Shown here: piece by piece, positions 12,801 through 62,621 of the stretch | How positions within the stretch are numbered: the stretch's first letter is position 1 | How the letters are laid out: each line of letters starts with the position of its first letter | From: Leuctra nigra | Lineage: Eukaryota; Arthropoda; Insecta; Plecoptera; Leuctridae | Direction: 5' to 3' | NCBI GenBank assembly: GCA_934045905.1 | Contig: OW203762.1 | Location: 3,224,001 to 3,288,000 of the forward strand | Length of the DNA stretch: 64,000 bases | Translations under genes and position numbers: made by a program | Notes under the pieces: model-generated | Seen by the model: only the letters and a program-made list of their open reading frames with translations | Database searches by the model: none | Told to the model about the DNA's origin: nothing

Positions 12801-15800
12801 CATAAAATTAAATACCTATGCATTTCTTTTACAGCGGAATCTGAGTACGGCGTCAACTGTTCCATTTGGGGCTTCACCGCCTTACGAGTCTACTGTTGAG
12901 GTTAGTTCGATGCAGATATTTTTGATTTCTTACCAGATGTATCTAGACATCATAAAATTAAATACACATTCCTTTTTCAGCGTAATCTGAGTACGGCCTC
13001 AACCATTTCATATCCCGATGATGCAGTGAATATCAATAATTTATCTTCTTTTTTTAGTACCTAGTTTGTAGTTATTATTACCATAAAGATATTTTGTCTG
13101 CCAAATGTTACCAATAATTTCTTTGTAAGTAAAGAATAAACTTTATTCTTTTCCCAGGCAACTAATAAAAAGGCAGCTATTGCGACATCTCTTATCCATG
13201 TAAGCATAATTGAATTATAATTTCTTCTTATACCATTGACGATTAACCTCAGTGAAAGTTACGTATTATCTTAATTTTGTTTTTAGAAGGCCATCCCGTA
13301 CCCAGCCCCACTTCCTACCTACAGCTTGGCTGTATCAAGAATGCTCAAGAGAGGAAAGGGTCTTAACGTGAATTCAAAGTTCATTACTGAGAGTTCAAAC
13401 TTTCTGCTCCTGAATACCGATGGTCGCCCCAGCAAGATCGACTTTAAAAACTTTTCAAAATCCCTAATAGAAAAATATCCAGAATTTGCTGATGGCAGCA
13501 CCGAACCATATGTACGTACTGTAAACCATACTGTTAAACAAACTGTTGGTAGGAGTTTAAAATACCTACGTAGGTAATGTGAATTTAAATCATGTTTTCA
13601 TGGATAACCTTTATAAATAGGGACTTGAAATATGTATTATCACTGTTCTTCTTATGAATTGTTTACCAATGTATAATCTTATTATTTACAGACATTTCTC
13701 AAGGTCCAACTAAGTAGATGGATACGAAATGATCGACATCGTAACAAATCACTTGCAGATGATCCAGTCTTCAAAATCCCGGACATCCCAGAACCAAATA
13801 AGCAAACACTGGTGGACACATTAGCTTCGACCACACCAAGGTAAGCTCCATATTCCATGTGCTTCACTTGTACGAATTTTAACAAGCAAGTTACAAGTAC
13901 AGGCTACAATGCATATGAAGTTATTCACGAAAATAAGGAACACTTTGCACTCTGGTGGCTATTGTGGTAGTACTAAGTAAATGGCGGATATCAGGGACAC
14001 ATTTGTGTATTATTAAATATAAATATTTGCTTTACTTGTTTTTTTATGGCTAAAAAGTATTTTTCTTTTTAACTGCACTATGGAAGCATTAACTGTAAAT
14101 CAAATAAATACATCTGTAAATTGATAGTAGCAATCTTGCTAGAAGTGGCTCCATCACGTATTGCTTATTTGCGCGAATAGGATTCACTTAAGTTATAAGT
14201 TACTACTGGTTGTATTAACTTGATTATCGTATCAAGTTTTGTGTAAAATGTTTGAAGATTCTAATCTTCATAATAGATTCTACAAATATTGTTTCTGGAA
14301 CCAGTTTTAATGAATCAGTGGTTTTTGTCGTTTTAACATTAATCTTGTTGTTTAGTGACCTATTTAATTTTGAATGAATACCTTGTACTTTAGTGCATAC
14401 CAAAGAGATTAATATCACAATTATACACATAGTGCTACAGGGAGACATTAATTCCATATTTTGTTTTGTAGTTCACTGGATTCTCATACAAAAGCGCTAG
14501 TAAATGCTTTGGGTGTCAAGCCCTCAAACACACCACATGTGAGGCTTCTATTAAAAAATTCTTTTATGGCAAGAAGAGAGTGGATCCACAAGGCGACTTC
14601 TATTGAAGCAATCCTATTAAAGTTTCCACATTTGGAGAACTATAAGCTGGTAAGAAACATGCATTTTTAGTAGAAAATAATTTGTTACAGAATCCTATTG
14701 ATTGGGTTTGGTGATTAATGTTAAGCAAGTCTTGTGGCCTTTCCTTCTGTTTGATGTGTGATGTGTACATTGATTTCTTATTTTCAGTTTATGTTCGACT
14801 TTGGCTTAATGGATGTTTCGCCATCGCCACCAATTGTTTTCGCAAACATCACATCGCGACTGTCCTCCATCTTCTCGTTACCGGCTGGGACAGACTACGA
14901 GACATTAGAACTCTTCCGGACCGTGGAGAAGACACTGCACCCCCGCCGCCCTAAAGATCAGCGCCCTTTGCTGTTGATTCAGCCTGTGAGTACATTTCCT
15001 TCACTTGCCCAAAATCTATATATATTAGATGATATTAGGGGGAAAATGGAAGTAATAAAATTGTTATAATTAAAAACTATGAAAACGCTGTGTAACGCGC
15101 TTCGTATTGCATTAGAATTAATATGCACTTGCAAGTTTAGTTTCTGCTGTACAGGGAGAATCATTATTTATTTATTTATTACATTCACTGGCAGTGGCAT
15201 AACATTCAATCATTTATGTAGTAAAATATTAAAACTGATTATCTGATATAACTCGTCGCGTATATCTCGTGTAACACATTCGTTACATACGAACCATTTA
15301 TTTTAAGTAGAGTTGGATACTCGAGTGCGTTTTAACCAGTCTGACTTCGATTCCAACCCAGATTTTTGGGATTTCCAGCACTAAACAAATTGTGCCACAA
15401 GACAAACAAGATTGCTGACCCAAATAATCGGCAACTGTGAAAGGCCGAGAAAGATGACAATTCGTTTTTCAATGATATTATACACCTAGGACACTGTAAT
15501 TTCAATTTTTAAATGTATTTGAGAGTACAACAGACTACCAAAGGATATTAATACCTAAATTGGTCATTTAAACTCATTAAAACTCATTTAAAGACTGTAA
15601 TATGAGTTCAAGTTCTATGTGACATGTCATCAATGTTTAAAACGCATAATAAGTGATGTATTTGTGAATATTGAAGGTGATGGAAGGTGTTATAACAACT
15701 GTAATGTAGAATAGCATATATTCTAACTAAAAACATCATAAAAATCTAATTACAGTGTCCTAAGTACCTAATATAAGTGTAAAACGAATTGTCATCTTTC

Positions 15801-26286: not shown

Positions 26287-28303
26287 CTATAAAAGACAGT
26301 AGAGATCAATCTCCTTCAGGAAATTGATGACTCTACTTACGCTGTTTGGGTCGTCTTCAAGGATCTCGGACAGATCCCCAGAAAGACGAAGCAGCTGTCG
26401 CTGATTTATGCATTTTGTGCATTCAGTTAAAATGTGTTTCACAGTGAAAGGCGCATCGCAGACTTCACATTGTGGGGGATCTTCACGGCTCAGAAGGAAC
26501 CCGTGGGTTAGTCGACAATGTCCAATTCGAAGTCTGGCTGCCACAACCTCCTCCCTACGCGAATTGCGAGAAGAGGAGGGCCAGACCCGAACGGTAGGTT
26601 TGATTGATCTTAATTTATTGTTTAAAGTTTCGTCCCACAAAGTTTGCCAATGATTAAACAATTTCAATTTAAACATATTTTTAATGTCTGACGCTGGAAT
26701 TTTCTTTATGTCAATATACCTTTTATTAGCAGCGTTCTTTGCAGCTTCGTCCGCTTTTTCATTGCCGACAATGCCAGAGTGTCCCGGAGTCCAGCAGAAG
26801 GAAACCGTTGTACCTCTGGCATGAAGGCATGAAAGAGTGTTTTGGATGCTCTGGGAGAGAATGTCCAAAGGATTAAATCTCTCCAGGCATTGTAATGAGC
26901 TCAGCGAGTCTGAGCATATTAAAAACTTATTTCTAGGGTCATGTTCGAATTGCATAAAGTTCAGCGGTAAAAACACTCGCATGCGAGGTGAGTTTAAAAC
27001 AAACCCCGGTCTTCCCCATAATAAAAGCACATCCAACGTCGTCATTCATTTTTGACCCGTCTGTAAATACTAGAGAATATTCCTCATAAGACTCACATAA
27101 GTTTTTAAAATGTTGTTGATATACGGCCATGGCGGTAGTGGCTTTGGGAAATTGTGCCAAGTACGTCAGACAGGTTGGCTTCGGTACTGTCCAAGGTGCA
27201 GTGTCCGAGGATTTTACCTTTAAAACATCGGGTATGACAATATCAAGTGTCTGAAGGAGTTCTCGAGCTCTGATGCCCAATGGTCTTGTGGCTCTCGTTC
27301 TTGTATCATATATTGCACTATAGGGTGGCTGAAAAACCGTCCTATAGGTAGATTTCTCAGGTGTGCTGTATAATTTAGATAAAAGACTGGCTATCAGGTA
27401 CGAGCGTCGCATGTCCAGACTGGGTTCACCAGCCTCGCTGTACAGACTTACAACCGGACTCGTCCTGAATGCACCAGTTGATAATCTTATGCCTAGATTG
27501 TGTACAGTATTTATGCATTTAAGGTAAGAGTCCCTCGCAGAGGAATAAATAACACATCCGTAGTCAATACGCGATCTAATAAAAGCTCTATAAAGCCTCA
27601 ACATAACTACTCTGTCTGCGCCCCATGCAGTGTTAGTTAACATTTTTAATATGTTGAGTTTTTTCATACAAGATGTTTTAAGAATTTGAAGGTGAGCTTT
27701 CCAGTTTAGTTTTACGTCCAGGGTCATTCCGAGGAACTTGACTGTCTCTGATGTGGTAATATTAGTTCCAGCCATGAACAAGGAAGGTGCCGGTTGAATG
27801 CCACGGAGACGATTAAAGTCAATACAGGTTGTCTTCGTTGTTGAAAATCTAAACCCATTCTTCTCAGCCCAGCTGATAAGACGGTTGATAGTCAACTGAA
27901 TTTGGCGTTCCGCGATACTTAATTTAGGTGAATTAAAATATATCGCCAGGTCATCTACAAATAGTGAGTATCTTACTGGACGTGGCATACAAGAAGATAT
28001 TCCATTAATAGCAATTAAAAATAACGTGCAGCTTATAACTGATCCTTGTGGAACGCCGTTTTCTAAAATAAAACTGCCTGATTCTGAAGAGCCAAGTCGC
28101 ACTCTGAATGTCCTGTTCGATAAAAAATGTGTAATGAATTTCGGTAAGTTGCCACGGAATCCCCATTCGTAAAGAGTTTTTAAAATGCCATATCTCCATG
28201 TTGTGTCATAAGCCTTTTCGAGGTCGAAGAAGACAGCAAGGAGATGTTGTTTTGTTAAGAAAGAATTTTGTATACTTGATTCTATTTCTATAAGATTGTC
28301 CAT
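26287..28303 (-). pseudogene. LINE A ORF2, 3' part: RT palm/thumb and RNase H
   Basis: 28303-26939 encodes RT (FFDLEKAYDTTW, GVPQGSVISC, SLFVDDLAIYF with VDD in place of ADD) and the start of RNase H (LVFTDGSK, AELYAI). A frameshift near 26940-26965 moves the frame; RNase H continues to 26287 with ICSDSLSSL and TPGHSGIVGNEKADEAAK, then a Cys/His tail (CEVCDAPFTVKHILTEC). The active-site Asp and Glu residues are visible in both halves, so damage is limited to indels. Confidence 0.85.
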
Positions 28304-30096
28304 TGTCGAGCGGTTTCGACGGAAACCGGAGCTATAAGATTTTCATTTTCAAGGGTCCACATTAATCGTTTATTGACCATTCTCTCCATTATTTTACAGA
28401 TACAGCTGGTAAGTGACATAGGTCTATAATTTAATGCAAATTTCTTATCTTTTCCAGGTTTGGGGATCGCCACGAGGATAGATTCAAGCCAAGCTATAAG
28501 ATTTTCATTTTCAAGGGTCCACATTAATCGTTTATTGACCATTCTCTCCATTATTTTACAGATACAGCTGGTAAGTGACATAGGTCTATAATTTAATGCA
28601 AATTTCTTATCTTTTCCAGGTTTGGGGATCGCCACGAGGATAGATTCAAGCCAAGAGCCTGGGAAATCGTCCTCCATCCAAATCCGATTAAAAAGATTTA
28701 AAAGATATATTTGTGATGGTAGTGGTAAGTTTTTAAGCATTCTATTGTGTACAGAATCCGGTCCGGGAGCTCCATCGCGTGATTCCTGTATGGCAGATTG
28801 TAATTCCCATAAAGAAAATGGCAGGTTATAGTTATAAGAAAGGTTTGTGTTAAAGTTCAATGTGTTTCTTTCTTCTCTTACTTTTATTTGTATAAAGTTT
28901 TGGGAATAATTATTGGAGCTAGATACTTTAGAAAAGTGTTCGGCTAGGGCATTTGCAATGTCTCTGGTTGAGGTCTGGAGTCGGCCATCCACCATGATGC
29001 CCCCAATGCTCGTATTGGTGTGCTTTCCCGTAATTTTACGAACTTTGTCCCATATCTTTGTTGCTGGTGTACGACGGGTTATAGTAGCAATATATGTTTT
29101 CCAGGACTCTTTTTTAGATTGCTTAATAATATAGCGAGCTTTAGCCCTAAGTTTACGAAATGATGAAAGATTTGTTTGTGTGGGATATTTATTAAAAATA
29201 GCAAGTGCTTTACGGCGTTTCTTTATTGCTTCCTTGCAGTCATCATTCCACCAGGGTACAGATGGTCGCCTGTGCTTGCCCGATGTTTGTGGGATTGACT
29301 GGCCAGCAGCGGTGATTATGGCTTCTGTTAAATAGTCCACATGATTCTGAACGTCAGGGAATTCACTTTCGTTTAAATTTAGCTGGGTCTGGAATTTCGA
29401 CCAATCAGCACGCTCTATCTTCCATTTCTTGTGTCTTGTCTGGCTTATACAGGGTTCAACTGGGAGTAAGGATATTGGGAAATGATCGCTGCTGCATAGG
29501 TCCCGATGTACATTCCATTCGTATTCTAATGCAATAGATGGGCTACAAATGGAGATATCAATGGCAGAGTAAGTTCCATATGCTGTACTGAAGTGGGTCG
29601 GGTCTTCGTTGTTGAGAATAATTAGACCTAGGTCTGAGCACACCTTCTCAACAAGTCGCCCCCTTCGGTCGACCCTGTTGCAACCCCACAGCGTGTTGTG
29701 AGCATTGAAGTCACCACATATAATAAAGGGTGAAGGAAGCTGCTGAACTAGATCTAATAAATCTGTTTCTGAAACTACGTCTGACGGTGGCAAGTATAAA
29801 CTACAAATTACAAGGGGCCGGGGAAGATGTATATGGACAGCCACTGCCTGAAGAGATGATTGAATAGTCACCTCTTCAGAGTACTGGTCGATGTGTACAG
29901 CAATGGCCACACCTCCCCTTGCCACGTCGCTAACATCTTTGCGAAAAATATTGTAGTTTTTAAAATTAGCCTTGTCAGTGTGTTTAAAACGTGATCCTTG
30001 TAAAGAGAAACAAATAGGGTTATAATCTAGGGTTAAAAGCTTCATCTCTTCAAAGTGAGCATAAAAACCGTTGCAGTTCCATTGTATAAAAGCCAT
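28288..30096 (-). pseudogene. LINE A ORF2, 5' part: endonuclease and RT fingers
   Basis: Starts MAFIQWNCNGF. Endonuclease motifs: GDFNAHNTLWGC and SSDHFPISL. A linker follows, then RT fingers with RPMSLTSCICKIMERMVNKR. The block from AWLESILVAIPKPG to NENLIA appears twice in tandem because 28331-28492 and 28493-28654 are direct repeats of 162 bp (54 codons, in frame). Immediately after the second copy the frame is lost near 28330. Confidence 0.88.
28331..28654. repeat. 162-bp in-frame tandem duplication in the RT domain
   Basis: GCTATAAGATTTTCATTTTC starts at 28331 and again at 28493; both copies end GATTCAAGCCAA. The copies appear identical by eye, so the duplication is recent. Confidence 0.9.
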
Positions 30097-39734: not shown

Positions 39735-40115
39735 GAGGTGCAAAGAAAGATGAAATTGATTAACTCCGTAGAGTTAAAGGAGAAGCTAGGAGGGATGAAG
39801 TTACCGCCTAACCAAGTCTTGTTGGTCAATGAATGTGTAGCATTATCCAGACACTCAAATAAAAAAAGCAGGCGTTATAACACAGATTGGATTCTGCTGT
39901 GCCTTCTCCTGCACGTAAGAAGCCCTTCTGCTTACGCATTTCTACGTACACAAGAAATCTTACCCCTCCCTTGTGTAAAAACAATCAGAAACTACCTTCA
40001 ACTCGTGAGCACGGACTGCGGCTTCGACGAAAAGTTTTTTGAAGCTTTCAAGTTAAAACTTTCAAAGCGTGAACCCCATCAGAGGAGAGGTTCATTAGTA
40101 TTCGACGAAATTCAG
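39735..40115 (+). CDS. P-like transposase catalytic-core exon (ends at a GC-AG intron)
   Basis: EVQRKMKLINS, then RRYNTDWILLCLLLHVRSPS, LPLPCVKTIRNYL and finally LVFDEIQ. The last Asp/Glu pair is the first acidic pair of the RNase H-like core in P-element transposases. The exon ends CAG at 40115 followed by GCGAGT rather than GT. The matching acceptor TTTTAG ends at 40202. Confidence 0.85.
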
Positions 40116-40202
40116 GCGAGTTATTAGAATTATTATTTCATTTCATACACTCCTGGGATATACCAGTGATTTTTTGTTGTTATATTGTCTGATGTGTTTT
40201 AG

Positions 40203-43200
40203 GTTCGCACATGTGCATCCGTGAATGTTAAAAATATGAAGGTCGAGGGATTGGTGGATTTTGGAGGAGAAGAGCCCAGTGCCACAAAAACTGATGAGCT
40301 CGCAGACCATGGCCTGGTTTTAATGTTCCAGCCATTTGCTGACAATTATACTCAGCCGATTGCTGTTTTTGCTGCAAAGAACAGCACAAAAGGGACCGTG
40401 CTGGCTCGGCTGGTTCTAAGGGCGATTACGTTGTTAGAGAAGGCTGGTGCCAAAGTTGATTTAGATTTAGATTTAGATTTATTTTGTACACATCTTACAA
40501 GTAGTGGGTATCCACAAGGTGGTAAGGAACAACAGTACAATGAAAATTAATAATATGGTATAATAAATAATAGAGCCAGCTCTCAAGGTCCTTCTAATTC
40601 TTGTTGTCTTCACTTCCTTCATCACCGTCCTCCTCGTTCTTAGATGTCACCATATGTCGAAACTCTTTTACAGATATGTCAGTCATATCAAAGTGTTGCA
40701 ATTTGTTCCAGTCACGAACGGTTCTGGCCAAAAATGAAAATCTACCGCAATCGGTTCGTGCAAAAAGTTCTTTTATCATGTGACTTGAGGTTGTTCTTCC
40801 TTGACGTTTTTCTTCTAACTTTCCAGCACATTCAGACCATCCAATATTGCCATTTCTCATTTTAAACATATTGCATAACCTTGCAGTTTTCCTTCTGCTT
40901 TCTAAAGTTTCCCATTCCAATTCCTTCATCATTTCATTGGGACTTTCCCAAACAACATTCAAAACACCTCTCTCATTCCGTTCCTTCTTCCACTTCTTTA
41001 CTCTACCAGTCACCCTTCTAGCCGCAATTTTTTGAATATTTTCTAGTGACCTAACTGCATTTTCTCGGTAAGGGTCCCATATGGCACCTCCATATTCCAG
41101 AAGAGGTCTCAAGAGTGTCTTATATGCCATGTTTTTCGTAGCTATGCTTGCTCCCATCAAGTTTCTATAGACAAAATTTATGTTTTTAAGGGCTTTACTG
41201 GCAACTAGACTTAAATGGTCTTTCCACTCCAAAGTTTCATCAATCCAGACTCCAAGGTATTTGTAGCCATTCATCACTTGCAGTGTCTGCTCAGCAATGG
41301 AATATTTGGCAGGATTACTTTTTCTGGCTCGCGTATAACTCACAACTACGCACTTCTTCACATTCAAGCTCATTTCATTCTTAATCATCCATTCATTGAT
41401 CACTTCCAAGTCATGTTGAAGATCCTGCTCATCTTCTTCATTACTAATCTTCCGATAGACAACTAAATCATCAGCGAAGAGTCGAACAGGTGACTGTACA
41501 TTTGATACTAGATCATTTATGTAAATGAGAAACAGTAATGGGCCTAGAACGCTACCTTGAGGTACTCCGGAAGTGACTTGTATACTGTCTGACAGGGTGT
41601 TTCCAACTTTGACCCTTTGTTCTCTCCCTAAAAGAAATGCTTCCAGTACTTGAATGACTGCATCGTTTGGAACTATTGATTTAACTTTTGAAATGAGTAT
41701 CTTGTGGTGAACCTTATCAAATGCTTTCATCATGTCCAAATATACTGCATCCACTCGTTCTCCACTATCCAGTGCATCAGACAGTTCTTGTACGAAGCCA
41801 GTAAGTTGCGTCTCACACGAGAAATTTGCCCTGAAGCCGTGTTGTGCTTCTATGATCCAATTCTTTTCAACTAATATTTGCCAGATGTATTGGTTAATTA
41901 GTTTCTCCAGGATTTTGCACGCAAGGGACGTAAGACTAATGGGTCGGTAATTGGTCAGTCGGCACTTCTCACCGCCTTTAAAGATTGGAATAACAATTGC
42001 CTTCTTCCAGTCAATTGGAATTGCACCATCTTTTATTACTTGAGTATACAGGTGGAAAAGGTATTTGGAGATAATGTAACCACCCAATTTGAAGAAGCGA
42101 GCTGTTAGTCCATCCTCGCCGGGGGCTTTTCCATTTTTGAGTTTGCGAATAATGTCGAGAACTCCTGCAACACTAATGGAAAATGGATATGCTCCCATTG
42201 AAACTCCCGCATTTACGTCTTCATTCAAATGGCAATGATTTTTATTAAATACATTGGAGTAGAAAATGTTCAATTCGTTTGCCTTCTCTTCATTAGTCGA
42301 AAACTCTGTGCCATCTGTTCCTACTAAAGTTGGTAAATCTCTTCCACCCGTTCCACCCTTTTGCTGACGTACATGTTTATACAGCATGGACCATCCGCCT
42401 GCTTCATCATCTTTTCGAAACATGTTTTTCATGAATTTATCCTTTGCCTTAGCCTTTTCCTGATTAAGTCTTTTAGTGAGAAGTTTAAGTTTCTCCTTGT
42501 AGCCGCCCCTAAACTTTCCTCTATTGTAATGATTTCGAACCTTTCTTTTGAGTTTCTTGATTTTTTCGTTATAGTACTGTGGGTCACTATTTTTTTTTAA
42601 CACAAGTTGAGGAATGTGGTGTACCATCGCGGCTTTACAGATATTCAAGAATCCATCCCAAAGTTCTTCAACGTTCTTGTCTACAGATGCCCAATCAGAG
42701 AAATTGTAGCTTAACTCATCTTGAAGTCCTCTTCTATTGGTTTTCTTGTAACACCATACTACTGCTTTTGTCTCCGCCTCAGTAACCAAGCCATTCATAT
42801 CACATTCGACTTCAACGATGACTGCCTTGTGATCGCTCAGATCTACCTCAACAACATCACTTCTAAGCAGACTGTCTATTGGATTAATCAACACCACATC
42901 CAACAGGTTGCTCCTGGTCCCATCAATCATCCTTGTGCCCTCCTTTACAACTTGTTCATAACCTTGATTCATGATGGAGTAAACTACTCCCTGCTTAGTA
43001 ATTACATTCGTAGCAATTCCATGTTTCCATTCAATTTCTGGAAAATTGAGGTCACCGGCCACTATTGTCCTCTGATTGATGTCCTGTCGCTGCAGATGGT
43101 CATTCAATCTTTGAAGAAACTCAATGCCACCGGTGCCACTTCTGTAGGTACCTATGACATTAATCGTCTTGCTTTTACTAGTACTGATTGCGACGCATAT

Positions 43201-46200
43201 CATTTCAAAATTGTCATCAGTCCAGAGAACTTTTCCTTTCAGTTCATGCTTGGTGCCAATCATCACTCCTCCACCATGTCTGTTGCGATCATTTCTATGA
43301 AGTGTGTAATTTGCCAGAGATACTTCGCTGTTGTTTATATCTTGACTCAACCACGTTTCAACAACAACAAACAAGTCGGGATCATAAGTCTCGACAATGG
43401 TTCGGAAATTATCAATCTTCTTTAAAATACTTCTAGAGTTGATTAGTAACAGCCGTACCGCATTTCGCTGATTAATCACATCGCCCTTTTCCCTCACAAC
43501 CCATTGTGCATTTCCTTCAAGACCAGTTAACGCAACCAGTTTCCCGAGAAATTGGCATTGTTTTTAACACGAATCATGCTTTTACCAAAATCCTTGAATA
43601 TTTCCAGCCAAGTGTTTTCTCCTAAGTTGTTCAATCTATTCCCGTCCGCTTTCATTTCTCTGGCTCCAATGTGTTGACCAGGATCTACAAACCAACCTCC
43701 TTTTCGAATAACTTCCTCCCTTATGATACAGTTCATTCTGCATACTGTCGCAATTCCTAGATCTTTCCTCAATGGAACTCCACTGGCACAGATTTCAGCT
43801 CCCTTAAATGTCTCCTTGACTACTCGTAGCAGATTTGCAAAGTCATTAACAAGATTCGCTGCATCTATTCCCAGCTTTGCATCTTGAACACCTACTTGGA
43901 GAAAGACAATGTCATGTTTCATAGGTTCTTCTGGTTGAGACAATTGAAGCTGTTTTGTAAGTTCACTAATGCGAATGCCTGGGAATATTCTTGAGTCTTC
44001 ATTCTTCCACAGATGAAAATCTCTTGCATTGGCAAGGGTAGAGTCTCCCAAGAGAAGCATGGTTGGCATTATAATAGTTCTGTTACTTGTACCATGCGAG
44101 CGAGGACAGGATTCAATCCGTACTTGATTACTTTCAGCCGGTACTGTACTTGCGGTTACGGATACGGATATCGGATCATTTAGCAGTGTTTTATTTTCTG
44201 ATTCGCCAAATCTCAAATCATAATCCTGAACTAAAGGTTTATTTGGTAGATGAATCATTGGTCTGTTCAGTGCGTTTGATCTTTGGTTCCTAGTCTTTGA
44301 TGTCCACACCCTGCCTGTCTCATTATAATCCTTATCAGTATGATTATTTTGTGGATACGATTTTGATTGGATGCCATTTTGAACCTTTTGAGCATGTCTG
44401 TTCAGCACAGCTGTTGTTCTTGGATTTCTAGTCTTGGAATTGTCCGACGACCAGGCTACACTTCGTTGGGTACTCAACCTCTGCCCGGCATGCAGAGAAT
44501 AGACCTTGATGATAACGTCAGATTCTTTGAACGTATTTTCTAAAACACTCTTAACTAGGTCCCAGGTGAAACCATCAATTCCACAACCAATTTTCGGTAA
44601 AGCCAATTTTTTAATGTCTTTTTCAATGCATATGGATTTTAGGCTTGATATAGTTTTTACAAAATCAATGAGAGTTGGCTTCCCAGAAGATTTTTCTTTC
44701 GTCACGAGATGAAAAATGGGTCTACCATCAACTTCTTGATACACTACTTCTCCGATATCCTTCTTTTGTGCCGCCAACAACTGACTGCCTCCAAATCTAC
44801 TTTTAAATTGAACAGCAATTCCACTTCCCATCACCAAGTCCTTCCCAACACAATGAGCGAATGCATAATCTGCTGGGGCATCAAATAAGTTGCCTCTGAT
44901 AACATTAATACATGAATTAGCAGGTAATTGGCGTAGTGATCTTGCGGTATCAATAGAGATTACGTCAGTAATGCGAAGGATACCATCTTCAATCTCCGTC
45001 CCACTGTCTGCCACGTCTGCTGTCGAGACTTCAAAGCTTACTTCATTGATTGCAGAGCAGAAGTTATTCATAGCATTCTTGTTTATTTGTCCTCCATCTA
45101 ATGTACATTTATGCTCTACTCCTCGATCTTCACCCTCTTCAACTTCAACACCTTTCTTCTGTTCTTCTACATCTAGTGTCAAGACTTTAGCGCTGGTTTC
45201 ATTGACTACGCAGAAAGAGTTAGAGATTTCAGAAGAATAATCGGTCGAGATTTGACTGTTCTCTCTTTTACTTCCTATATGAGATGCCAGGCTGACTACA
45301 CCCTCTCTCAACTCTTGCACTTCATTTGACAACATATGCAGTGTTGTTTTCGTCATCTTTTGTTCGTTGATCAACTCCTTCAAGATCCCTTCCATTGATT
45401 TAATTGACTTCAGCCATTGGTCTGATGCTCCACAATCAATTTTCTTGTTTCTGTGCTCTATTGTACAAGGTTTACACCACCACTGAGCTGATTTAATTGT
45501 GGATAATGTATTATATTGCGAATTAGATAAATGAAGGCACGCAATGTGAGCCCACCTGTTACAATATCCATCACACAGTAGTGCCTTGTCAGAATCAAGG
45601 ACTTCAATAGTACAATAGAAGCAACTTTGCCTGACAGTCTTTTTGGGAACAGTTCTCGCCGAAGAAGAAATATCTTCTACTATTTTGTCATTAGTCTCGA
45701 ACATAAAGACTTCTGGGTCCTGATTCAATGTTTTCATCACGTCTTTTAATCGATCCACAAGAACAGATTTTTTACCCATAACATCCTTTATTCCCCGATT
45801 GAATAGTTCACTTTTAATTTCATACATCTTAAGTTAATCAATGCTCTTGAGAATAAAATGTGGTGAATCTGATGACCTTGTTTGGAGACATGAGCTTCCT
45901 GGTTTGCAGTTACTTGACATCTTCGTGGGTCGTGAAAATTATACTTTCAACTCTAATGTTCAGCAGAAAATCTCAATACATTTATATTTCAAAAGTGGAT
46001 ATCACTCACAATTCCTTGCACAGCAGAACGATCCACGACTCAAATCGAAGAAGAAACTCTCAGGAACAAAGTAATATCAGTCTCGGCCCGATTAGACAGG
46101 TACTTCAAACGTAAATAATTAATATTTGTAGAGCTCAAATCAAGCTGTGTCCTCTTGATAATAAACAATCGCTGATTCTGCTGATGCAATCGCTGATGCA

Positions 46201-46389
46201 ATTGCTTGCGATGGCGCTACTACAAATCGTTCGATGTGGACACAGCTGGGTGTAAGTGGCAAACTTAATGACACTAAGTGTTCATTTGAACATCCTGTCG
46301 ATGAATCGAGAAGAGTTTGGGCAATTTCCGATGCACCTCATCTGATCAAGTGCATACGAAATCGATTCCACAAACAGAAAACACTGAAG
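40203..46389 (+). CDS. P-like transposase catalytic exon interrupted by LINE B
   Basis: 40203-40461 encodes VRTCASVNVKNMKVEGLVDF, ADHGLVLMFQPFADNYTQPI and LLEKAGAKVD. About 46194-46389 resumes with (D)AIACDGATTNRSMWTQLG and ends FHKQKTLK at a GTACCT donor. CDG and FDEIQ carry conserved acids of the family. The LINE B tail begins within the GTTGAT codons at 40461. Confidence 0.85.
40594..43497 (-). CDS. LINE B ORF2: endonuclease and reverse transcriptase
   Basis: 967 residues, uninterrupted. AP-type endonuclease at about 12-230: N20, E47 (VVVETWL), D149 with N151 (AGDLNFPE), and SDH at 221-223. Reverse transcriptase at about 490-760: RPISLTSLACKILEKLI, HGFRANFSCETQL, D588 (YLDMMKAFD), GVPQGSVLGPLLF, and FADD at 674-677. 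A C-terminal thumb-like region follows (ALKNINFVYRNLMG, LLRPLLEYGGAIWDPY). There is no RNase H, as in CR1/L2/jockey-type ORF2. All active-site residues are present, and the enzyme should nick DNA and prime cDNA synthesis. Confidence 0.95.
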   Translation of the reverse strand: MREKGDVINQRNAVRLLLINSRSILKKIDNFRTIVETYDPDLFVVVETWLSQDINNSEVSLANYTLHRNDRNRHGGGVMIGTKHELKGKVLWTDDNFEMICVAISTSKSKTINVIGTYRSGTGGIEFLQRLNDHLQRQDINQRTIVAGDLNFPEIEWKHGIATNVITKQGVVYSIMNQGYEQVVKEGTRMIDGTRSNLLDVVLINPIDSLLRSDVVEVDLSDHKAVIVEVECDMNGLVTEAETKAVVWCYKKTNRRGLQDELSYNFSDWASVDKNVEELWDGFLNICKAAMVHHIPQLVLKKNSDPQYYNEKIKKLKRKVRNHYNRGKFRGGYKEKLKLLTKRLNQEKAKAKDKFMKNMFRKDDEAGGWSMLYKHVRQQKGGTGGRDLPTLVGTDGTEFSTNEEKANELNIFYSNVFNKNHCHLNEDVNAGVSMGAYPFSISVAGVLDIIRKLKNGKAPGEDGLTARFFKLGGYIISKYLFHLYTQVIKDGAIPIDWKKAIVIPIFKGGEKCRLTNYRPISLTSLACKILEKLINQYIWQILVEKNWIIEAQHGFRANFSCETQLTGFVQELSDALDSGERVDAVYLDMMKAFDKVHHKILISKVKSIVPNDAVIQVLEAFLLGREQRVKVGNTLSDSIQVTSGVPQGSVLGPLLFLIYINDLVSNVQSPVRLFADDLVVYRKISNEEDEQDLQHDLEVINEWMIKNEMSLNVKKCVVVSYTRARKSNPAKYSIAEQTLQVMNGYKYLGVWIDETLEWKDHLSLVASKALKNINFVYRNLMGASIATKNMAYKTLLRPLLEYGGAIWDPYRENAVRSLENIQKIAARRVTGRVKKWKKERNERGVLNVVWESPNEMMKELEWETLESRRKTARLCNMFKMRNGNIGWSECAGKLEEKRQGRTTSSHMIKELFARTDCGRFSFLARTVRDWNKLQHFDMTDISVKEFRHMVTSKNEEDGDEGSEDNKN
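43527..45827 (-). CDS. LINE B ORF1: SAP-PHD-macrodomain-SGNH protein
   Basis: 766 residues. SAP-like helix pair at about 2-35 (ELFNRGIKDVMGKKSVLVDR). PHD finger C4HC3 at 69-121 (C69, C72, C85, C89, H94, C97, C118, C121). Coiled region about 140-185. Macrodomain at about 303-445, closest in pattern to the ADP-ribosyl-glutamate hydrolase TARG1/OARD1: GNLFDAP, AHCVGKDLVMGSGIAVQFK, K377 in LVTK and D418 in GCGID. These match the two catalytic residues of human TARG1. A basic, Ser/Asn-rich linker follows. SGNH-esterase-like domain at about 588-745 with GDS (S596), but GVQD in place of GxND and D728-G-N-R731 in place of DxxH. PHD and esterase are known in CR1 ORF1; a macrodomain between them is the unusual part. 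Confidence 0.9.
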   Translation of the reverse strand: MYEIKSELFNRGIKDVMGKKSVLVDRLKDVMKTLNQDPEVFMFETNDKIVEDISSSARTVPKKTVRQSCFYCTIEVLDSDKALLCDGYCNRWAHIACLHLSNSQYNTLSTIKSAQWWCKPCTIEHRNKKIDCGASDQWLKSIKSMEGILKELINEQKMTKTTLHMLSNEVQELREGVVSLASHIGSKRENSQISTDYSSEISNSFCVVNETSAKVLTLDVEEQKKGVEVEEGEDRGVEHKCTLDGGQINKNAMNNFCSAINEVSFEVSTADVADSGTEIEDGILRITDVISIDTARSLRQLPANSCINVIRGNLFDAPADYAFAHCVGKDLVMGSGIAVQFKSRFGGSQLLAAQKKDIGEVVYQEVDGRPIFHLVTKEKSSGKPTLIDFVKTISSLKSICIEKDIKKLALPKIGCGIDGFTWDLVKSVLENTFKESDVIIKVYSLHAGQRLSTQRSVAWSSDNSKTRNPRTTAVLNRHAQKVQNGIQSKSYPQNNHTDKDYNETGRVWTSKTRNQRSNALNRPMIHLPNKPLVQDYDLRFGESENKTLLNDPISVSVTASTVPAESNQVRIESCPRSHGTSNRTIIMPTMLLLGDSTLANARDFHLWKNEDSRIFPGIRISELTKQLQLSQPEEPMKHDIVFLQVGVQDAKLGIDAANLVNDFANLLRVVKETFKGAEICASGVPLRKDLGIATVCRMNCIIREEVIRKGGWFVDPGQHIGAREMKADGNRLNNLGENTWLEIFKDFGKSMIRVKNNANFSGNWLR

Positions 46390-46583
46390 GTACCTACTTC
46401 ACAATTAGTCAACTATATGTAAACTTATCACTTATTATGAATCACTCGTCCATTTCTTGATTTGCATTGCTGTTAAAATTATACTAAATTTATAATATCA
46501 TACTATCAATGTTTTTATAATGTCTGATTATTCAACCAGCCAGATATTTTTCACATCTTACTTAAACATAACTCATAAATCAG

Positions 46584-46783
46584 TTCACAGTTGATGGGAC
46601 ACCTGTGAATTGGAATCACTATGTCCTCATGCACGATGCCGATTTTGCACTTCCTGGCAATTTAAGAGTTTGTCCGAAAATTACCACCGATCACCTGAAT
46701 CCGACAAACTGTGCAAAGATGCGAGTGTCACTGGCTGTTCAGATCTTCAGCAGAAAGTGCGCCAGTGGACTTTCATTCTTTAA
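46584..46783 (+). CDS. P-like transposase exon, 5' part before DNA-element insertion
   Basis: FTVDGTPVNWNHYVLMHDAD, then KMRVSLAVQIFSRKCASGL, a block typical of P-element transposases (LKMRVxLAxQxFS). The frame reaches SFF at 46783; the TGA at 46801 lies in the inserted element. It resumes at 52376 as KSRFLRGLED. Confidence 0.82.
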
Positions 46784-47297
46784 AGAGCCTATGTCATCTT
46801 GAATAAAGCTTTTACTATGTGTTCTTACCATGTATTTAGGCAATATAAGACATGCATAATCTAAATTAATTGTACCCTGAATTAATTATTAATTATTTTC
46901 TGTGCGAAATTTGAACCTGGCGCGCGTGAATGCCTACGTCACTCTGTGCGCAGCGCTGATTGGTTAGCGTGAATAAGGGGGGATAGATCACGCCCGCTGA
47001 TGCCGCTCAACCCTTCTCTCGCACCACTGCCGGTGCACAATACACCTGACAATTAGTAAACAATCGAAAGTTGAGAATGCAGTGAAAGATTCAGTTAGCT
47101 GCAGACATTTCGAAACATATTTTAAAACTGACAGAATCTGCACAGAAATATTGAAGTTTTATTTACCGTGCTAGCAATGCATTGTGGAGTAATTGTTGTT
47201 TAATTGTTTCGCCATGAACAATGAAGTGGAATATTATTTCTGTAATTCAAAAATTATTGCCGTATGCCGGACTCATCAAAACTGATTGCGAATACAT

Positions 47298-48005: not shown

Positions 48006-50156
48006 ATGGCATCATCTAAGGAAAGGATGGCTAAATTAAGGGAGAAATTGAAGAAAGATCCTATAAAAATGGAAGCGCATCTTCGAGCTGAGCGAGAACG
48101 TGACAAAGCCAGACGTGCAAACAAAATGCTCGGTGAATTGGCATTAAACGAGAAGCGTAAACGGGACTTGGAGCGTCAACGTAAGTGTCGAGCCAAGAAG
48201 GCACTGCTGAAAAATATCACGACTACGCCTACCCGCCCTTCGGCCTACAGGTGCCCTCAAACTCTTGGGAAAGCAGTTTCCAAAGCAAGACGAATGCTGC
48301 CAAGAAGCCCTAGGAAAAGATTAGCAGTCGTGAAAGATCTGCTAATCACCGAGATGCCTTCTGCATCCAAATTGCTTCTCCAGCCATTCCCGAATAAAGC
48401 ATCGCCAAAGCGACTTACTGAGGAAACTCGCTTAAAGGTTGTTGCATTCTACGAGCTCGACGGAATCAGCCAACAGGAGCCTGGGACGAGAGACGTCATC
48501 TCAGTCAAGGACCCAGTGACTTCAAAACGTCATCACATGCAGAAAAGAATTATGTTAATGAATATCAAACAAGCATATGCCCTTTTCAAAGAACAAAACC
48601 CAAGTATTAATATTGGAACTTCCATGCTTTTTGATTTGAGGCCAAAACATGTGCTGCCATTTTCAGACATGAAGCATAATGTTTGCGTGTGCATGTATCA
48701 TGCCAACATGGATTTTTTGATTAAGGCGGTACATGCTGTGGAGGATACATTTCCAAAAGATGGAAGTAATCTCATCGATGCCCTTGTCTGCAATTCTCAA
48801 TCAGAAGATTGTATGTTTTCCAAGTGTTGCAGATGCCCGAAAGATATCGAAACATTATTTACTGGGGATCATGCACAGCCTGTTGCATGGAAAAAATGGC
48901 AGGATCAAGGCAGGCAGTCACAGATTGTGCCACAGTATGGCACCATTCAGGATGCTTTGAATGAAATTCGTAAACGGCTACAATATTACATGTTCCATGT
49001 GCATGTAAAGCGTACACAATCAGTATGTTTTGAAGAGTCGAAACGAAATATTGAAGACGGTATGGCTATTTTGCAAGTGGACTTTGCAGAGAACTATTCC
49101 ACAATATCTCAAGACGAGATTCAGTCCGCACACTGGTGTCACGGCCAGGTGACTGTATTTACAGCAGTTGCTTGGTTGAGCTCCAGTGTGAAGCGGTGCT
49201 TTGCTCTTGTGAGCGATGACCGGGATCACAACAAGGTCTCGGTTTGGTATTTCATGAAAACTGTTATCGACCACCTAAAAAATGAGTTCCCAGTGTTGCG
49301 TTATGTTAAAGTGTTTTCCGACGGCTGCGCAGCGCAGTTTAAAAACCGATACACGCTTTCAAATTTGGTACATTTCCAAGAAGACTACGGTGTCATGGGA
49401 GAGTGGAACTTCTTTGCCACCTCCCATGGCAAAGGTGCTGTTGATGGTGTTGGAGGCACCATCAAACGAAGTGTGTGGTTGCGGGTGAAAGCACGGCAAG
49501 TGGAAGTTAACAATGCCGTTGAATTCTGGGAGTGTGCTCGAGCTGCAGTAAAAAACATTGCTGTGCTGTATGTATCGGCAGATGATATTGCTAAAAATGA
49601 AGGTTTCTTAACGGAGAGATGGGCCCAAGTAAAGCCTATTCCAAAGCTGCATTCTCTTCATCATTTGAAAGTTGGTAAGGGCTCCTCAAGTCTGGAAGTC
49701 AGAGAAACCGTCACCTCTGTTGCTAAGACCATTGATGTGCTGCCAACATCTTGTGCCTTGTCAGATGATGATCTGGATGATGATGATGATGCTGATGATG
49801 AAGATGGAAATGTGGCTTCAGAGCAAGATGGAGGTGAACTTCCAGATGAAGAAAGTGTTGGAGGATCCGAACCTACTGGCATGGACAAATCATCGTTAAC
49901 GACCGGATCATTTGTGCATGTGGGATTACCTGTCACTGGAAAAAGGAATGCCATCAAGCATTATTATGCAGAAATAGTGGACATAAATTCAACGAATGTT
50001 TTACTAAATTACATGCACCCAAGTGGAAAGAACTTCTATGTTTGGCCCGAAGTTAGGGATGAATCATACGAAAATATTTCTTCAATATCGCTTCGTTCAG
50101 TCAACCCTCCAACAGTAGTCAATAACCGGGGTCAATTTCAATTTCTGAAGTACTAA
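48006..50156 (+). CDS. 716-aa DDE-like putative transposase
   Basis: The N terminus is strongly basic and helical (MASSKERMAKLREKLKKDPI, EKRKRDLERQRKCRAKKALL), fitting DNA binding. A Cys/His cluster follows at 227-277 (CVCMYH, then C262, C269, C274, C275, C277). The core has acids spaced like an RNase H-fold transposase: D359 in QVDFAENY, D439 in VFSDGCAAQFKN, and HGKGAVDGVGG at 474-484. An Asp-rich stretch (586-600) and a C-terminal SH3/Tudor-like segment (HYYAEIVDI, then YVWPEVRDESYE) close it. The first ATG at 48006 follows a likely intron acceptor (TGCAG at 47996). Similar uncharacterised proteins occur in other animals, but I cannot place it in a named superfamily. Confidence 0.75.
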   Translation: MASSKERMAKLREKLKKDPIKMEAHLRAERERDKARRANKMLGELALNEKRKRDLERQRKCRAKKALLKNITTTPTRPSAYRCPQTLGKAVSKARRMLPRSPRKRLAVVKDLLITEMPSASKLLLQPFPNKASPKRLTEETRLKVVAFYELDGISQQEPGTRDVISVKDPVTSKRHHMQKRIMLMNIKQAYALFKEQNPSINIGTSMLFDLRPKHVLPFSDMKHNVCVCMYHANMDFLIKAVHAVEDTFPKDGSNLIDALVCNSQSEDCMFSKCCRCPKDIETLFTGDHAQPVAWKKWQDQGRQSQIVPQYGTIQDALNEIRKRLQYYMFHVHVKRTQSVCFEESKRNIEDGMAILQVDFAENYSTISQDEIQSAHWCHGQVTVFTAVAWLSSSVKRCFALVSDDRDHNKVSVWYFMKTVIDHLKNEFPVLRYVKVFSDGCAAQFKNRYTLSNLVHFQEDYGVMGEWNFFATSHGKGAVDGVGGTIKRSVWLRVKARQVEVNNAVEFWECARAAVKNIAVLYVSADDIAKNEGFLTERWAQVKPIPKLHSLHHLKVGKGSSSLEVRETVTSVAKTIDVLPTSCALSDDDLDDDDDADDEDGNVASEQDGGELPDEESVGGSEPTGMDKSSLTTGSFVHVGLPVTGKRNAIKHYYAEIVDINSTNVLLNYMHPSGKNFYVWPEVRDESYENISSISLRSVNPPTVVNNRGQFQFLKY

Positions 50157-58752: not shown

Positions 58753-61557
58753 CTAAATATTTTTAAGTCTGAATCTAAGGTCTCTACTGTTAGTTGGCAT
58801 AGGATGCAGGACATCATCAGGGAGATCATTCCATAGGCAGATGCCCTCAGCCGCAAGCGAGTACTTCTCGATGTTGGAGTGTGGCTGGATTCTTCTGATC
58901 TTGTGGATGTGGTCGTTCCTTCCAATGTAGTTAGGATCCAGAAGATAAGAGCCTAAGTCTGCCCAAGCTGGCTGATTCTGATAAGCCTTGTAGATGGCGA
59001 TGATTCTCGAATGATTCCTGCGTTCTTCTAAAGACTCCCATCCGAGTTCGTACAATAATTCAGTGGTACCTGGAGAGATCCCGAAGGAACCTTTGACGTA
59101 CCTCGCAGCTCGCCTCTGAACAGTGTCCAAGCTGTACTTGTTGCTCTGCGTGTGAGGACTCCAAATGGAAGAACAGTACTCCAACTGCGGTCGAACAAGC
59201 GTGAGGTATGCTCTCTCCTTAGCAATTTCAGGAGCACCTATTAGATTCCTCATGACGAAGTGTAGAGTACTGCTTGCTCGACTAGAAGTTCTGTTGATGT
59301 GGTTGTTCCAAGAAAAGTTACTGGCGAGCCATATTCCAAGGTACTTGGAATCCTTTTGTTCTTGTAGCACTTGGGTCCCAATGGTGTATTCATGCTGGAT
59401 TTCACTGCGTTTTCTGTTGAAGGTCATCTTTATAGTTTTATTTACATTTATCTTCATCTGGTTTGCCCTAGCCCAATTGTCGATGCGGTTCAGATCTTCT
59501 TGGAGAGTGTTGCAATCATCATCTCTTAGTATAGGCTTGTAGACAATTACGTCATCGGCGAAAATTTTGACCTTCGAACATAAGGTGTCAGGTAAGTCAT
59601 TAACGAATATGAGGAACAGCAAAGGGCCAAGGATGCTGCCCTGTGGGACCCCGGACGTTATCTTGATGCTGTCCGACAGGTCTCCCTCCACGCGTACTCG
59701 CTGGGTTCTATTGCGAAGGAAGTTAGATATCCAATGTATGATGTTCACATCCAAGTCTATGACGCACATCTTCTCCATGAGAATATCGTGTGGGACTGAG
59801 TCAAAGGCCTTGGCTAGATCGATGAGGATAGCATCCATCTGGTGTCCATTCGAGACTACTTCACTCACTAGATCTTGGGTTAGGCCGGCAAGACTTGCTT
59901 CGCACGAGTATTTAGGTCGGAATCCGTACTGAAGTGGCGTGAAGAAGTTCGAAGCTTCCAGGTGATGTCTGATGTGCCTGTCGATTAGCTTCTCCATGAG
60001 TTAGCAACATAAACAGGTCAGGCTAATTGGTCTGTAGCTAGCGACTGAGCTTTTTGATCCACCTTTATGTATAGGTATCACAATGGCTCTAGACCAGTCT
60101 TCAGGGATTGTTGATTCGCAAATTGATTGCTTAAATATTACAAGTAAGTATTCAGCAATTTCGGAAATTGAAGCTTTCAATAGGTCTCCAGTGATGCTGT
60201 CAGGACCTGCACTCATACCACGTTTCATTGCTTTTATTTCCTTGGATATGGACATGATATCAATAGCCAGTGTAGGGAGGTTAGATGTTGGCCCTGCAAG
60301 CTGGAGTGGTTGGTCATTTCTTGGTGAGAATACAGTATTATAGTAATTATTGAGTGCATAAGCTTTTTCTACGTTCTTGGTAATGACAATATCATTTTGC
60401 TTTAAGGCCGGGATGGTGTTGTCACTTCTTCTTTTAGAGTTAATGTATTTATAGAACCTTTTCCAATTTCCCGATGCCTGCTTGTCACCCTCCTCCTTTA
60501 GAAGGTTAGCCATAAACTGCGAGTGGGCCTCGAGTTTTACTTCAATAAGACGTTTTGAGAGCACTTTAAACTTAGCTTTGTGTGCTGACGACATCTTACG
60601 CTTGTTATACGCTCTTTGGACGGACTTTTTCAATTTTCTTACTTCATTGTTGAAGTATGCTGGATCGCTGTTAGCTTTGACTTTCTTAGCAGGGATAAAT
60701 GTGTCCCTCGCTTCAAAGAGAATATCTTTAAAAGCCTCTTACTTTTCGTTAACGGAGTTTAACGATGAAGACCAAGGGATGAGACGCTCTCGAAGGAAGT
60801 TTTTCATTTCAGGCAGTCTTGCCTTTTTGTATTGCCATGACACCTTCTGTACAGGTTCAACGTCTCCATGTAATGGTGTGAGTTCGAGAAGCACTGCGTC
60901 ATGGTCGCTGAAGCCTGGAACAACTTCGGTATTCCACCAAATATCGGGCGGCTGCACAAGGAAGATATCCAGAATGCTTGAGCTTCCATTAACTTTAGCT
61001 CTTGTTCCCTCATTTACTGTTTGGATCAAGTTAAATTCCTGCTGTAGGTCGTTTATTCGCGTTTGAACAGTGCCCGGTCCACCTACTGCTAGATTATTCC
61101 ATACAATGTCTGGAAGGTTCAAATCGCCCCCAATAACTGTTTGTGAATCAGCACTCAGCGTGTGGCATTGAAGCTCTACAAGTCTGGCCTGCAATACCTC
61201 GAGCATCTGGTCATTTTGATTAGAGTTATATAACCCGATGATGTTCATGGCCTTATTGTTAACAATGATGCCCACACATAACATTTCTACAAGATCGTCT
61301 GTCCACTTGACATGGGCTGGAATCTCAGTTTTGACACATATGGCTACACCACCTCCCAGACTACCCCGGTCGCGTCGAAACACTTGGAAGTTTGCCGTCG
61401 GGAATATCTCGCTATCATAGTGCTCAGACGTAAGCCAAGTTTCTGAGGCAATTATAATGTCAGGTTTGTTTAAATCAATTAGGTCATTAAAGAGCATTTG
61501 TTTACGGTGTTGGCGGAGACTCCGACAGTTCACCTGAAGTACACGCAGTTTATTCAT
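58753..61557 (-). pseudogene. LINE C ORF2: endonuclease and RT with two stops
   Basis: 61557-60739 is the endonuclease (LQVNCRSLRQHRKQM, E in ASETWLTSE, GGDLNLPDIVW, FSDHDAVLLE). TAA at 60736-60738 interrupts it. 60633-60001 carries the linker and RT start (VIPIHKGGSKSSVASYRPIS), ending in TAA just before LMEKLIDRHIRHH. 59997-58753 has YGFRPKYSCEASL, LIDLAKAFDSVPH, GVPQGSILGPLLF and FADDVIVY, then the thumb. The frame is the same on both sides of each stop, so these are point changes and not indels. Confidence 0.88.
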
Positions 61558-61595
61558 CTTAATCCCTGTGGGACTGCGGATTAGAGGTTTAGATG

Positions 61596-62621
61596 TTATA
61601 TTACATGAGGATGTGTAGTTCTCATGTAAAAAAACCTCCTAACAGCGACGCCTGTAGGCCATGCATCAGGTGTGTTCAGCTCTTCCAGCAAGGCGTAATC
61701 TGCAGTCACTTTAAAGGATACAGTCATGGCATTGTCTTTCGAGATTTTCTCACAAAGAAATTCACTATTAACAAATTTGCAATTAAGATACTGCAACACA
61801 TCCTTGTCTGAGGTGCTCTTCTCCAGACGACTCACATGAAAATACGCTTTCCGTGGAGCTGGTCGCAGTCCTCCAGTGTTGTTGACAATACTTGTACCAA
61901 TTACTGGGGGATCCCTTCTGCGCTTCCTCTGGAGAACAACAGTAAAACCGTCTTCAGATTGGTTCACCTCCCTGCTCGCAGTCTGCTGCACGTTAGGTTT
62001 ACCATCTGCTCCTCTGGTGTCAGATTTACCATTTGAATCTCGCGCTCCCGCCAACTTATTTGAATCTTGCGACCCCGCCCACTCATTTGAACCACACGCC
62101 CCCTCCAACTCGCTTGCGTCGACGTGGTCCGTGGCGTGTGCTGCCTCGCTGCGGAGGTTTCTAGAACTAACTATGTTACCGACTGAGCTGGCGACCTTGC
62201 GTCCTAGATCCTTTGTCTTTTCTGACGTTTCTGGAGTATGAACAGTTGTCTTATTATTACACTTCAGGAAGTTAACTTTTTCTCTGAGAAGGTTGCTCAC
62301 CTCTTCCTGGCTGATTAAACGCTTGTCCTTCTCCATCAACAGCTGCTCCTTGTCAGCTATGATTACTCGTAGAAGATCCGCTGTATTGTTGTCAACGCCC
62401 ACTTTCGCACCGTCAGAAATAGTGTCGATGATCAGTCCCACATTACCCACACACATCTTGATAATTGCAAGAGTTGCAGCACTGAGTCTTTCTACTAAGT
62501 CTTCCTTAGCACCGTCCTTGGTTAAACCCAAGTTTTGAAGCTCTTTCCTTAAGTCTTTCACTCCCATTTCCTTCAATTTTATCAACACCCGAGAGTCGAC
62601 ACGACTTGTGGCGTCCGCCAT
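61596..62621 (-). CDS. LINE C ORF1: SAP-like, coiled-coil and RRM-like protein
   Basis: 341 residues, uninterrupted. SAP-like segment about 15-47 (LKEMGVKDLRKELQNLGLTK). Coiled coil about 80-120 (LLRVIIADKEQLLMEKDKRL). A low-complexity linker with repeated GAR/GSND-like DSN motifs follows (ELEGACGSNEWAGSQDSNKL). The C-terminal RRM-like fold about 257-330 (YFHVSRLEKSTSDKDVLQYL, PDAWPTGVAVRRFF) is typical of ORF1 proteins of this group. It likely binds element RNA. Confidence 0.8.
   Translation of the reverse strand: MADATSRVDSRVLIKLKEMGVKDLRKELQNLGLTKDGAKEDLVERLSAATLAIIKMCVGNVGLIIDTISDGAKVGVDNNTADLLRVIIADKEQLLMEKDKRLISQEEVSNLLREKVNFLKCNNKTTVHTPETSEKTKDLGRKVASSVGNIVSSRNLRSEAAHATDHVDASELEGACGSNEWAGSQDSNKLAGARDSNGKSDTRGADGKPNVQQTASREVNQSEDGFTVVLQRKRRRDPPVIGTSIVNNTGGLRPAPRKAYFHVSRLEKSTSDKDVLQYLNCKFVNSEFLCEKISKDNAMTVSFKVTADYALLEELNTPDAWPTGVAVRRFFYMRTTHPHVI

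Follow-up and report, generated by a model that had tools for sequence, protein, structure and literature searches.

A LINE retrotransposon of Leuctra nigra with a TARG1/OARD1-type macrodomain in its ORF1 protein

The ORF1 protein of a LINE retrotransposon in Leuctra nigra carries at residues 296-450, between a PHD finger and an SGNH-like C-terminal part, a macrodomain of the TARG1/OARD1 type, an assignment that we consider well established by profile, structure and pattern matches. Our favoured reading, to which we give a probability of roughly one half, is that the LINE thereby carries an ADP-ribosylhydrolase that removes the marks left by host PARPs where the target DNA is nicked or on the element's own particles. 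Catalytic activity, substrate and benefit to the element are what we infer in this reading, and its link to PARPs is drawn by analogy from human LINE-1, an element of another clade.

Esterase-bearing LINE ORF1 proteins have been called unique among ORF1 proteins for having an enzymatic function (PMC3905857). The sequence-only reading knew of no described CR1 ORF1 member with a macrodomain, and we found no macrodomain-bearing LINE ORF1 in the open-licence full-text literature, judged largely by titles and the starts of abstracts. The parts consulted of PMC4120745, PMC5408684, PMC3905857 and PMC8195603 describe none, and Metcalfe and Casane 2014 (PMC4120745) have 0 occurrences of the word 'macro' in their main text.

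The element and its surroundings

The window, i.e. the whole 64-kb stretch of DNA that was analysed, is eukaryotic in content and rich in mobile elements. The intact 766-residue ORF1 proposed earlier is present as a single open frame, with the correction that it lies on the minus strand (Table 1); frame 1 of the plus strand is rich in stops there, and frames of this length are expected from base composition alone at a rate of about 8e-18 per window. ORF2 matches the Pfam families RVT_1 (2.3e-33) and Exo_endo_phos (5.6e-11) as well as LINE-1 ORF2p (E 6.6e-24), and no integrase family is among the Pfam matches to the element's proteins. With an endonuclease and reverse transcriptase encoded behind ORF1 and no integrase match, the element is a non-LTR retrotransposon. 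Both ORFs are open and the LINE is roughly full-length: repeats of the AAATCT type are taken as its 3' end, while the 5' end, estimated from an interrupted transposase frame, is uncertain by about 25 bases.

Table 1. Features of the LINE, its ORF1 protein and its insertion site (window coordinates)
Feature	Coordinates	Strand	Remarks
ORF1	43527..45827	-	766 aa, open, stop TAA
SAP-like N-terminus, residues 3-29 (weak)	45741..45821	-	Pfam SAP E 0.016, below cut-off
PHD finger, residues 69-121, Pygopus type	45465..45623	-	Pfam and Pygopus match
Possible coiled coil, residues 157-184	45276..45359	-	heptad score reached by 37/1000 shuffles
TARG1/OARD1-type macrodomain, residues 296-450	44478..44942	-	profile, structure and pattern matches
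K377 codon (human TARG1 K84 position)	44697..44699	-	
D418 codon (human TARG1 D125 position)	44574..44576	-	
SGNH/GDSL-like domain, residues 588-749	43581..44066	-	S596 kept; GxND -> GVQD (Q648), DGxH -> DGNR (R731)
GGGAAAC, in-phase G_GGA_AAC heptamer, candidate -1 frameshift site	43539..43545	-	ORF1/ORF2 overlap
ORF2 frame (endonuclease and reverse transcriptase)	40594..43563	-	open from 43563, shifted by -1 against ORF1; no ATG before 43263
3' tail, AAATCT-type repeats	40458..40481	-	taken as element 3' end
5' UTR	45828..46194	-	5' end estimated from interrupted transposase frame, uncertain by ~25 bases
P-element-like transposase, piece before LINE	39735..40124	+	PF12017 4.8e-5
P-element-like transposase, RNase H N-terminal part, target broken by LINE	40203..40457	+	PF21787 5.3e-14
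P-element-like transposase, piece beyond LINE	46572..46799	+	PF21788 9.2e-6

The interrupted gene is a P-element-like transposase on the plus strand that spans 39735-40457 and 46195-46799, its frame being read as resuming at about 46195. Adjoining the 5' junction of the LINE, 46201-46419 has no Pfam match, and no target-site duplication could be read with certainty at the LINE ends. Since the LINE splits the transposase as a unit, ORF1 most likely moved within the element and is not a neighbouring host gene.

A related LINE lies at 58753-62621. Its ORF2 is broken into several pieces and is 35.5% identical to that of the present element over 938 columns; in its ORF1, of 341 aa, Pfam finds a SAP domain and no macro match. 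The window also holds the ORF2 of another LINE (28288-30096), in whose reverse transcriptase region some 55 residues appear to be duplicated in tandem (AWLESILVAIPKPG... twice), a long tandem array (3595-12990) with frames repeating MQIFLISYQMYLDIIKLNT..., and a 716-aa open frame (48006-50156) for which Pfam gives nothing at E 1 or below.

The ORF2 frame overlaps the end of ORF1, and its first ATG lies 300 bases inward, within the endonuclease. The overlap contains G_GGA_AAC; no other canonical heptamer stands in phase among the 767 codons of ORF1, and this one is ranked among the most shift-prone on mammalian ribosomes (PMC5009743). The chance of a canonical in-phase heptamer in 13 random ORF1 codons is 0.043, and four foldings of the RNA downstream of the heptamer gave nothing unusual (z -0.62, 0.24, 1.15 and 0.50) and hence no support for frameshifting. 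As a -1 frameshift site GGGAAAC is suggestive only; if the heptamer were used, it would yield a 1744-residue fusion in which the macrodomain is joined to the endonuclease and reverse transcriptase.

Domains of the ORF1 protein

All four macrodomain blocks named in the sequence-only reading are found: GNLFDAP (312-318), MGSGIAVQFK (333-342), LVTK (374-377) and GCGID (414-418). Profile searches match the segment to the Pfam macro family (9.3e-7) and, far better, to human C6orf130/TARG1 (E 1.3e-35), with 63 of 151 aligned residues identical (42%). An AlphaFold2 model built from 5 alignment rows (pLDDT 78.9, pTM 0.75) adopts the macrodomain fold on which the earlier proposal depended; in a Foldseek search of the PDB its top eight matches are TARG1 entries, and it superposes on 4j5s_C with a TM score of 0.94 (by target length) at 1.6 A. 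The sequence pattern published for TARG1-type domains, TKx(30,35)Px[IL]GxGxD (PMC6397177), also fits ORF1 residues 376-418, and K377 and D418 do occupy the places of the K84/D125 dyad of human TARG1, as had been claimed.

The domain thus shares with human TARG1 (OARD1, C6orf130) its fold, dyad and sequence pattern, but it sits inside a retrotransposon protein, and two ligand contacts that lie outside the published pattern are changed: the adenine-binding D20 is N313 and the ribose-contacting S35 is G328. In an 86-row macrodomain alignment that includes the ORF1 protein, asparagine stands at the D20 position in 19 of 86 rows and glycine at the S35 position in just 2, the ORF1 protein and the thrips protein described below. 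The dyad lysine and the dyad aspartate are each present in 85 of 86 rows, counts that are biased because the loci were picked with patterns overlapping the dyad motifs. The antitoxin DarG, next after the TARG1 entries in the Foldseek ranking, has a macrodomain of the same ALC1-like class and shares the catalytic lysine, but it has just this residue of the dyad (PMC7050489). The NCBIfam DarG match of the ORF1 domain (2.7e-14) stays far below the curated cut-off, at 53.2 bits against 250.

The other domains proposed for ORF1 fared unevenly. The PHD finger is confirmed, with a Pfam match of 4e-5 for the whole protein and a Pygopus PHD match of 2e-8 for the N-terminal piece. The SAP domain is no more than a weak similarity: the first 60 residues score E 0.016 and 15.3 bits against a Pfam cut-off of 23.9, a Pfam search with the whole ORF1 protein lists no SAP match, and when the ORF1 N-terminus is compared with the SAP found in the ORF1 of the window's other LINE, 13 of 2000 shuffles do as well. 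As for the SGNH-esterase-like domain, an SGNH-like part is present while the catalytic Asn and His positions are replaced. The C-terminal piece matches Pfam Lipase_GDSL_2 at 2.4e-4 (22.1 bits, cut-off 32.9) and the LINE ORF1 esterase 4c1b at an E of just 0.036; its structural model matches SGNH esterases, which weighs little because confidence in the model is low (pLDDT 48). Blocks III and V have the sequences GVQD and DGNRLN, respectively, with Q648 and R731 in the places of the catalytic Asn and His; Ser596 is intact. Judged by these residues, the SGNH part is probably not an active esterase, and since two of its catalytic positions are changed, any enzymatic activity of ORF1 probably lies in the macrodomain. 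What stands of the original four-domain description is therefore a PHD finger, a TARG1-type macrodomain with its dyad and an SGNH-like part within an intact LINE ORF1, with a weak SAP.

This layout invites comparison with the CR1/L2 ORF1 proteins of types III and IV and with the ZfL2-1 esterase (4c1b), which have in common with it a Pygopus-type PHD, a possible coiled coil and an SGNH-like C-terminus. Metcalfe and Casane (PMC4120745) list the Pygopus-type PHD for many CR1/L2 ORF1 groups and, in their abstract, esterase ORF1s for just two groups of vertebrates. The present protein differs from these in the extra macrodomain in between and in its incomplete SGNH catalytic set. Judged from ORF1 layout alone, the element appears to be of the CR1/L2 kind.

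Relatives and origin of the macrodomain

Our searches of public proteins for full-length relatives of the ORF1 protein (P0001) relied on shared 5-residue words; one scored the 7999 candidates sharing the most words, and two further ones covered 326 and 153 candidates. They returned a Frankliniella occidentalis protein (LOC127751199, P0004) and a beetle protein (P0003), and the search of 153 candidates added two short macro proteins (P0005 and P0006). That search listed no animal TARG1 although its length range included single-domain TARG1s, so the silence of word-based searches says little. Whole-protein scans found no relative of the ORF1 protein in genome contigs, and none of it or of the thrips protein in viral contigs. 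The beetle protein (875 aa) was set aside as a relative, since its macro match stands alone and slightly below the cut-off, and is taken as a host-type gene.

The thrips protein has the same domain order as the ORF1 protein: PHD, coiled coil, TARG1-type macrodomain, GDSL. It is shorter (518 aa), begins at the PHD, and is known only as a predicted protein with one member, from one contig. Its Pfam PHD match scores 23.3 bits against a cut-off of 24 and its GDSL match 23.6 against 23.6; no shuffle in 1000 equalled its heptad score, which makes the coiled coil likely. The macrodomain dyad is intact in the thrips as well as in the beetle protein. In its SGNH part GSND and the His are intact, but a His aligns at the Asp position in the alignment of this piece. 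Identity between the ORF1 and thrips proteins is 59/138 in the macrodomain (z 45), 11/58 in the PHD (z 4.6) and 38/144 in the SGNH part (z 2.4); by these figures the macrodomain is the best conserved of the three domains compared. The shared domain order suggests that the fusion is not a one-off accident.

With a prokaryote or phage origin of the domain in view, macrodomain-encoding stretches were collected from viral contigs (91, of which 80 were kept), genome contigs (8) and phage records (24). A tree of 86 rows combined 6 named rows with 80 of 88 loci, 8 being dropped as shorter than 110 aa, interrupted by a stop or lying on the other strand; a tree of 25 hand-chosen rows was left after 5 of 30 named rows were removed as duplicates or long branches. 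In the larger tree the LINE domain groups with the human, beetle and thrips rows and L007 at 91/91, a node that is not starred and for which the bootstrap had not settled; in the smaller one the same grouping has 99/98. L007, a contig from the viral collection that looks eukaryotic, falls among the animal rows by virtue of its TARG1-like protein of 173 aa (L007:512-1033). As both trees place the LINE domain with eukaryotic rows, we rejected a prokaryote or phage origin, and descent from a eukaryotic macrodomain is probable.

The ORF1 and thrips macrodomains are joined at 99/94 in the 86-row tree and at 99/92 in the 25-row tree, and a single old capture behind both is likely, with alternatives that the AU test leaves unrejected. 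On the 25-row tree, a constraint that unites the LINE domain with human TARG1 loses 1.1 log units (p 0.46), with the beetle row 2.7 (p 0.42) and with human and beetle together 1.3 (p 0.45). Because the test rejects none of the alternatives tried and the thrips protein is a long branch, one capture and two are both compatible with the data.

A structure search of predicted viral proteins, made with a macrodomain model covering 44463-44975, found TARG1-like folds among its best 50 matches in several viruses whose hosts, judged in part by the virus names, we take to be arthropods: Kadipiro virus (VP8), three viruses named after Frankliniella occidentalis, two named after Thrips tabaci, and one isopod iridovirus, for which identity is 45% across 110 columns. 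A cressdnavirus is also among the matches listed, and the thrips-named viruses are RNA viruses. Going by these predicted folds, arthropod viruses may use a similar enzyme, and an arthropod virus may have been the source of the LINE macrodomain.

A possible role for ADP-ribose removal in retrotransposition

If the macrodomain is an active hydrolase, its part in the element's life cycle might run as follows. ORF1p would coat the element RNA and travel with the endonuclease and reverse transcriptase, its PHD finger aiding chromatin binding. Once the endonuclease has nicked the target, host PARPs would ADP-ribosylate the DNA ends together with proteins close by, perhaps including ORF1p and ORF2p. 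The macrodomain would strip the ADP-ribose, with covalent attack of Lys377 on C1'' and hydrolysis by Asp418, and with the marks gone both primer end and particle would be released, allowing target-primed reverse transcription to continue.

The proposed chemistry is that of the human enzyme. TARG1 takes ADP-ribose off Glu/Asp and off nucleic-acid end phosphates (PMC7050489), clears it from phosphorylated DNA ends, with the D125A mutant dead (PMC5725667), and reverses thymidine ADP-ribosylation, at which K84A fails (PMC8501950); PMC7050489 gives the acidic residue as Glu125, PMC6397177 and PMC5725667 as D125. PARP1 is found in nuclear complexes of human LINE-1 ORF2p, and less of it with endonuclease- and RT-dead mutants (PMC5821459).

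A fuller account, which we hold to be doubtful as a whole, is that a LINE lineage including at least the thrips and Leuctra nigra members has long carried a TARG1-type hydrolase, would clear PARP marks from the nick with it and would deliver the eraser in cis through an ORF1-ORF2 fusion made by -1 frameshifting at G_GGA_AAC.

Macrodomains comprise readers as well as erasers (PMC7050489), and the ORF1 domain could bind ADP-ribose, with no need to cleave it, so as to bring the particle to DNA that is damaged or carries nicks marked by PARPs. The PHD finger and the weak SAP-like part also hint at chromatin targeting, and N313 and G328 depart from human TARG1; a pure reader would, however, not need the TARG1 dyad, which is intact in both the ORF1 and the thrips protein, and we regard this alternative as somewhat unlikely.

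Unlikely too, in our estimate, is an action away from the target nick, namely a cytoplasmic counter-defence, of the sort suggested for viral macrodomains, against mono-ADP-ribosylation by the host of the element's RNA or of the proteins of its particles. The ability of TARG1 to remove ADP-ribose also from nucleic-acid phosphates would fit such a role (PMC7050489). So would the TARG1-like macrodomains of several arthropod viruses, three of them Frankliniella occidentalis-named, among the best 50 matches, but the argument is one of analogy only. Moreover, we are not aware that any host enzyme modifies LINE particles.

The modular and reticulate nature of CR1/L2 ORF1 proteins (PMC4120745), together with the single genomic copy seen, would allow the domain to be a mere passenger, a TARG1 sequence once captured and now tolerated although the element gains nothing from it. 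This we find rather improbable: the dyad is intact, the macrodomain is the best conserved of the three domains between two diverged proteins, and its GC3 (0.329) falls inside the range of the other ORF1 parts (0.321-0.394). That a host TARG1 gene or pseudogene was joined by chance to this one copy would agree with the single copy seen and with the lack of a macro match in the ORF1 of the related LINE in the window, but is very improbable given one unbroken frame with the PHD ahead of the macrodomain and the SGNH part behind it, the same domain order in thrips, and the insertion of the element as a unit into the transposase gene.

Removal of host PARP marks by the element's own hydrolase is the reading that we prefer. 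It would add a second, well-understood enzyme to LINE ORF1 proteins and would mark host ADP-ribosylation as a barrier to retrotransposition or a step in it. The point mutants K377A and D418A would give a handle on the role of PARPs at LINE insertion sites.
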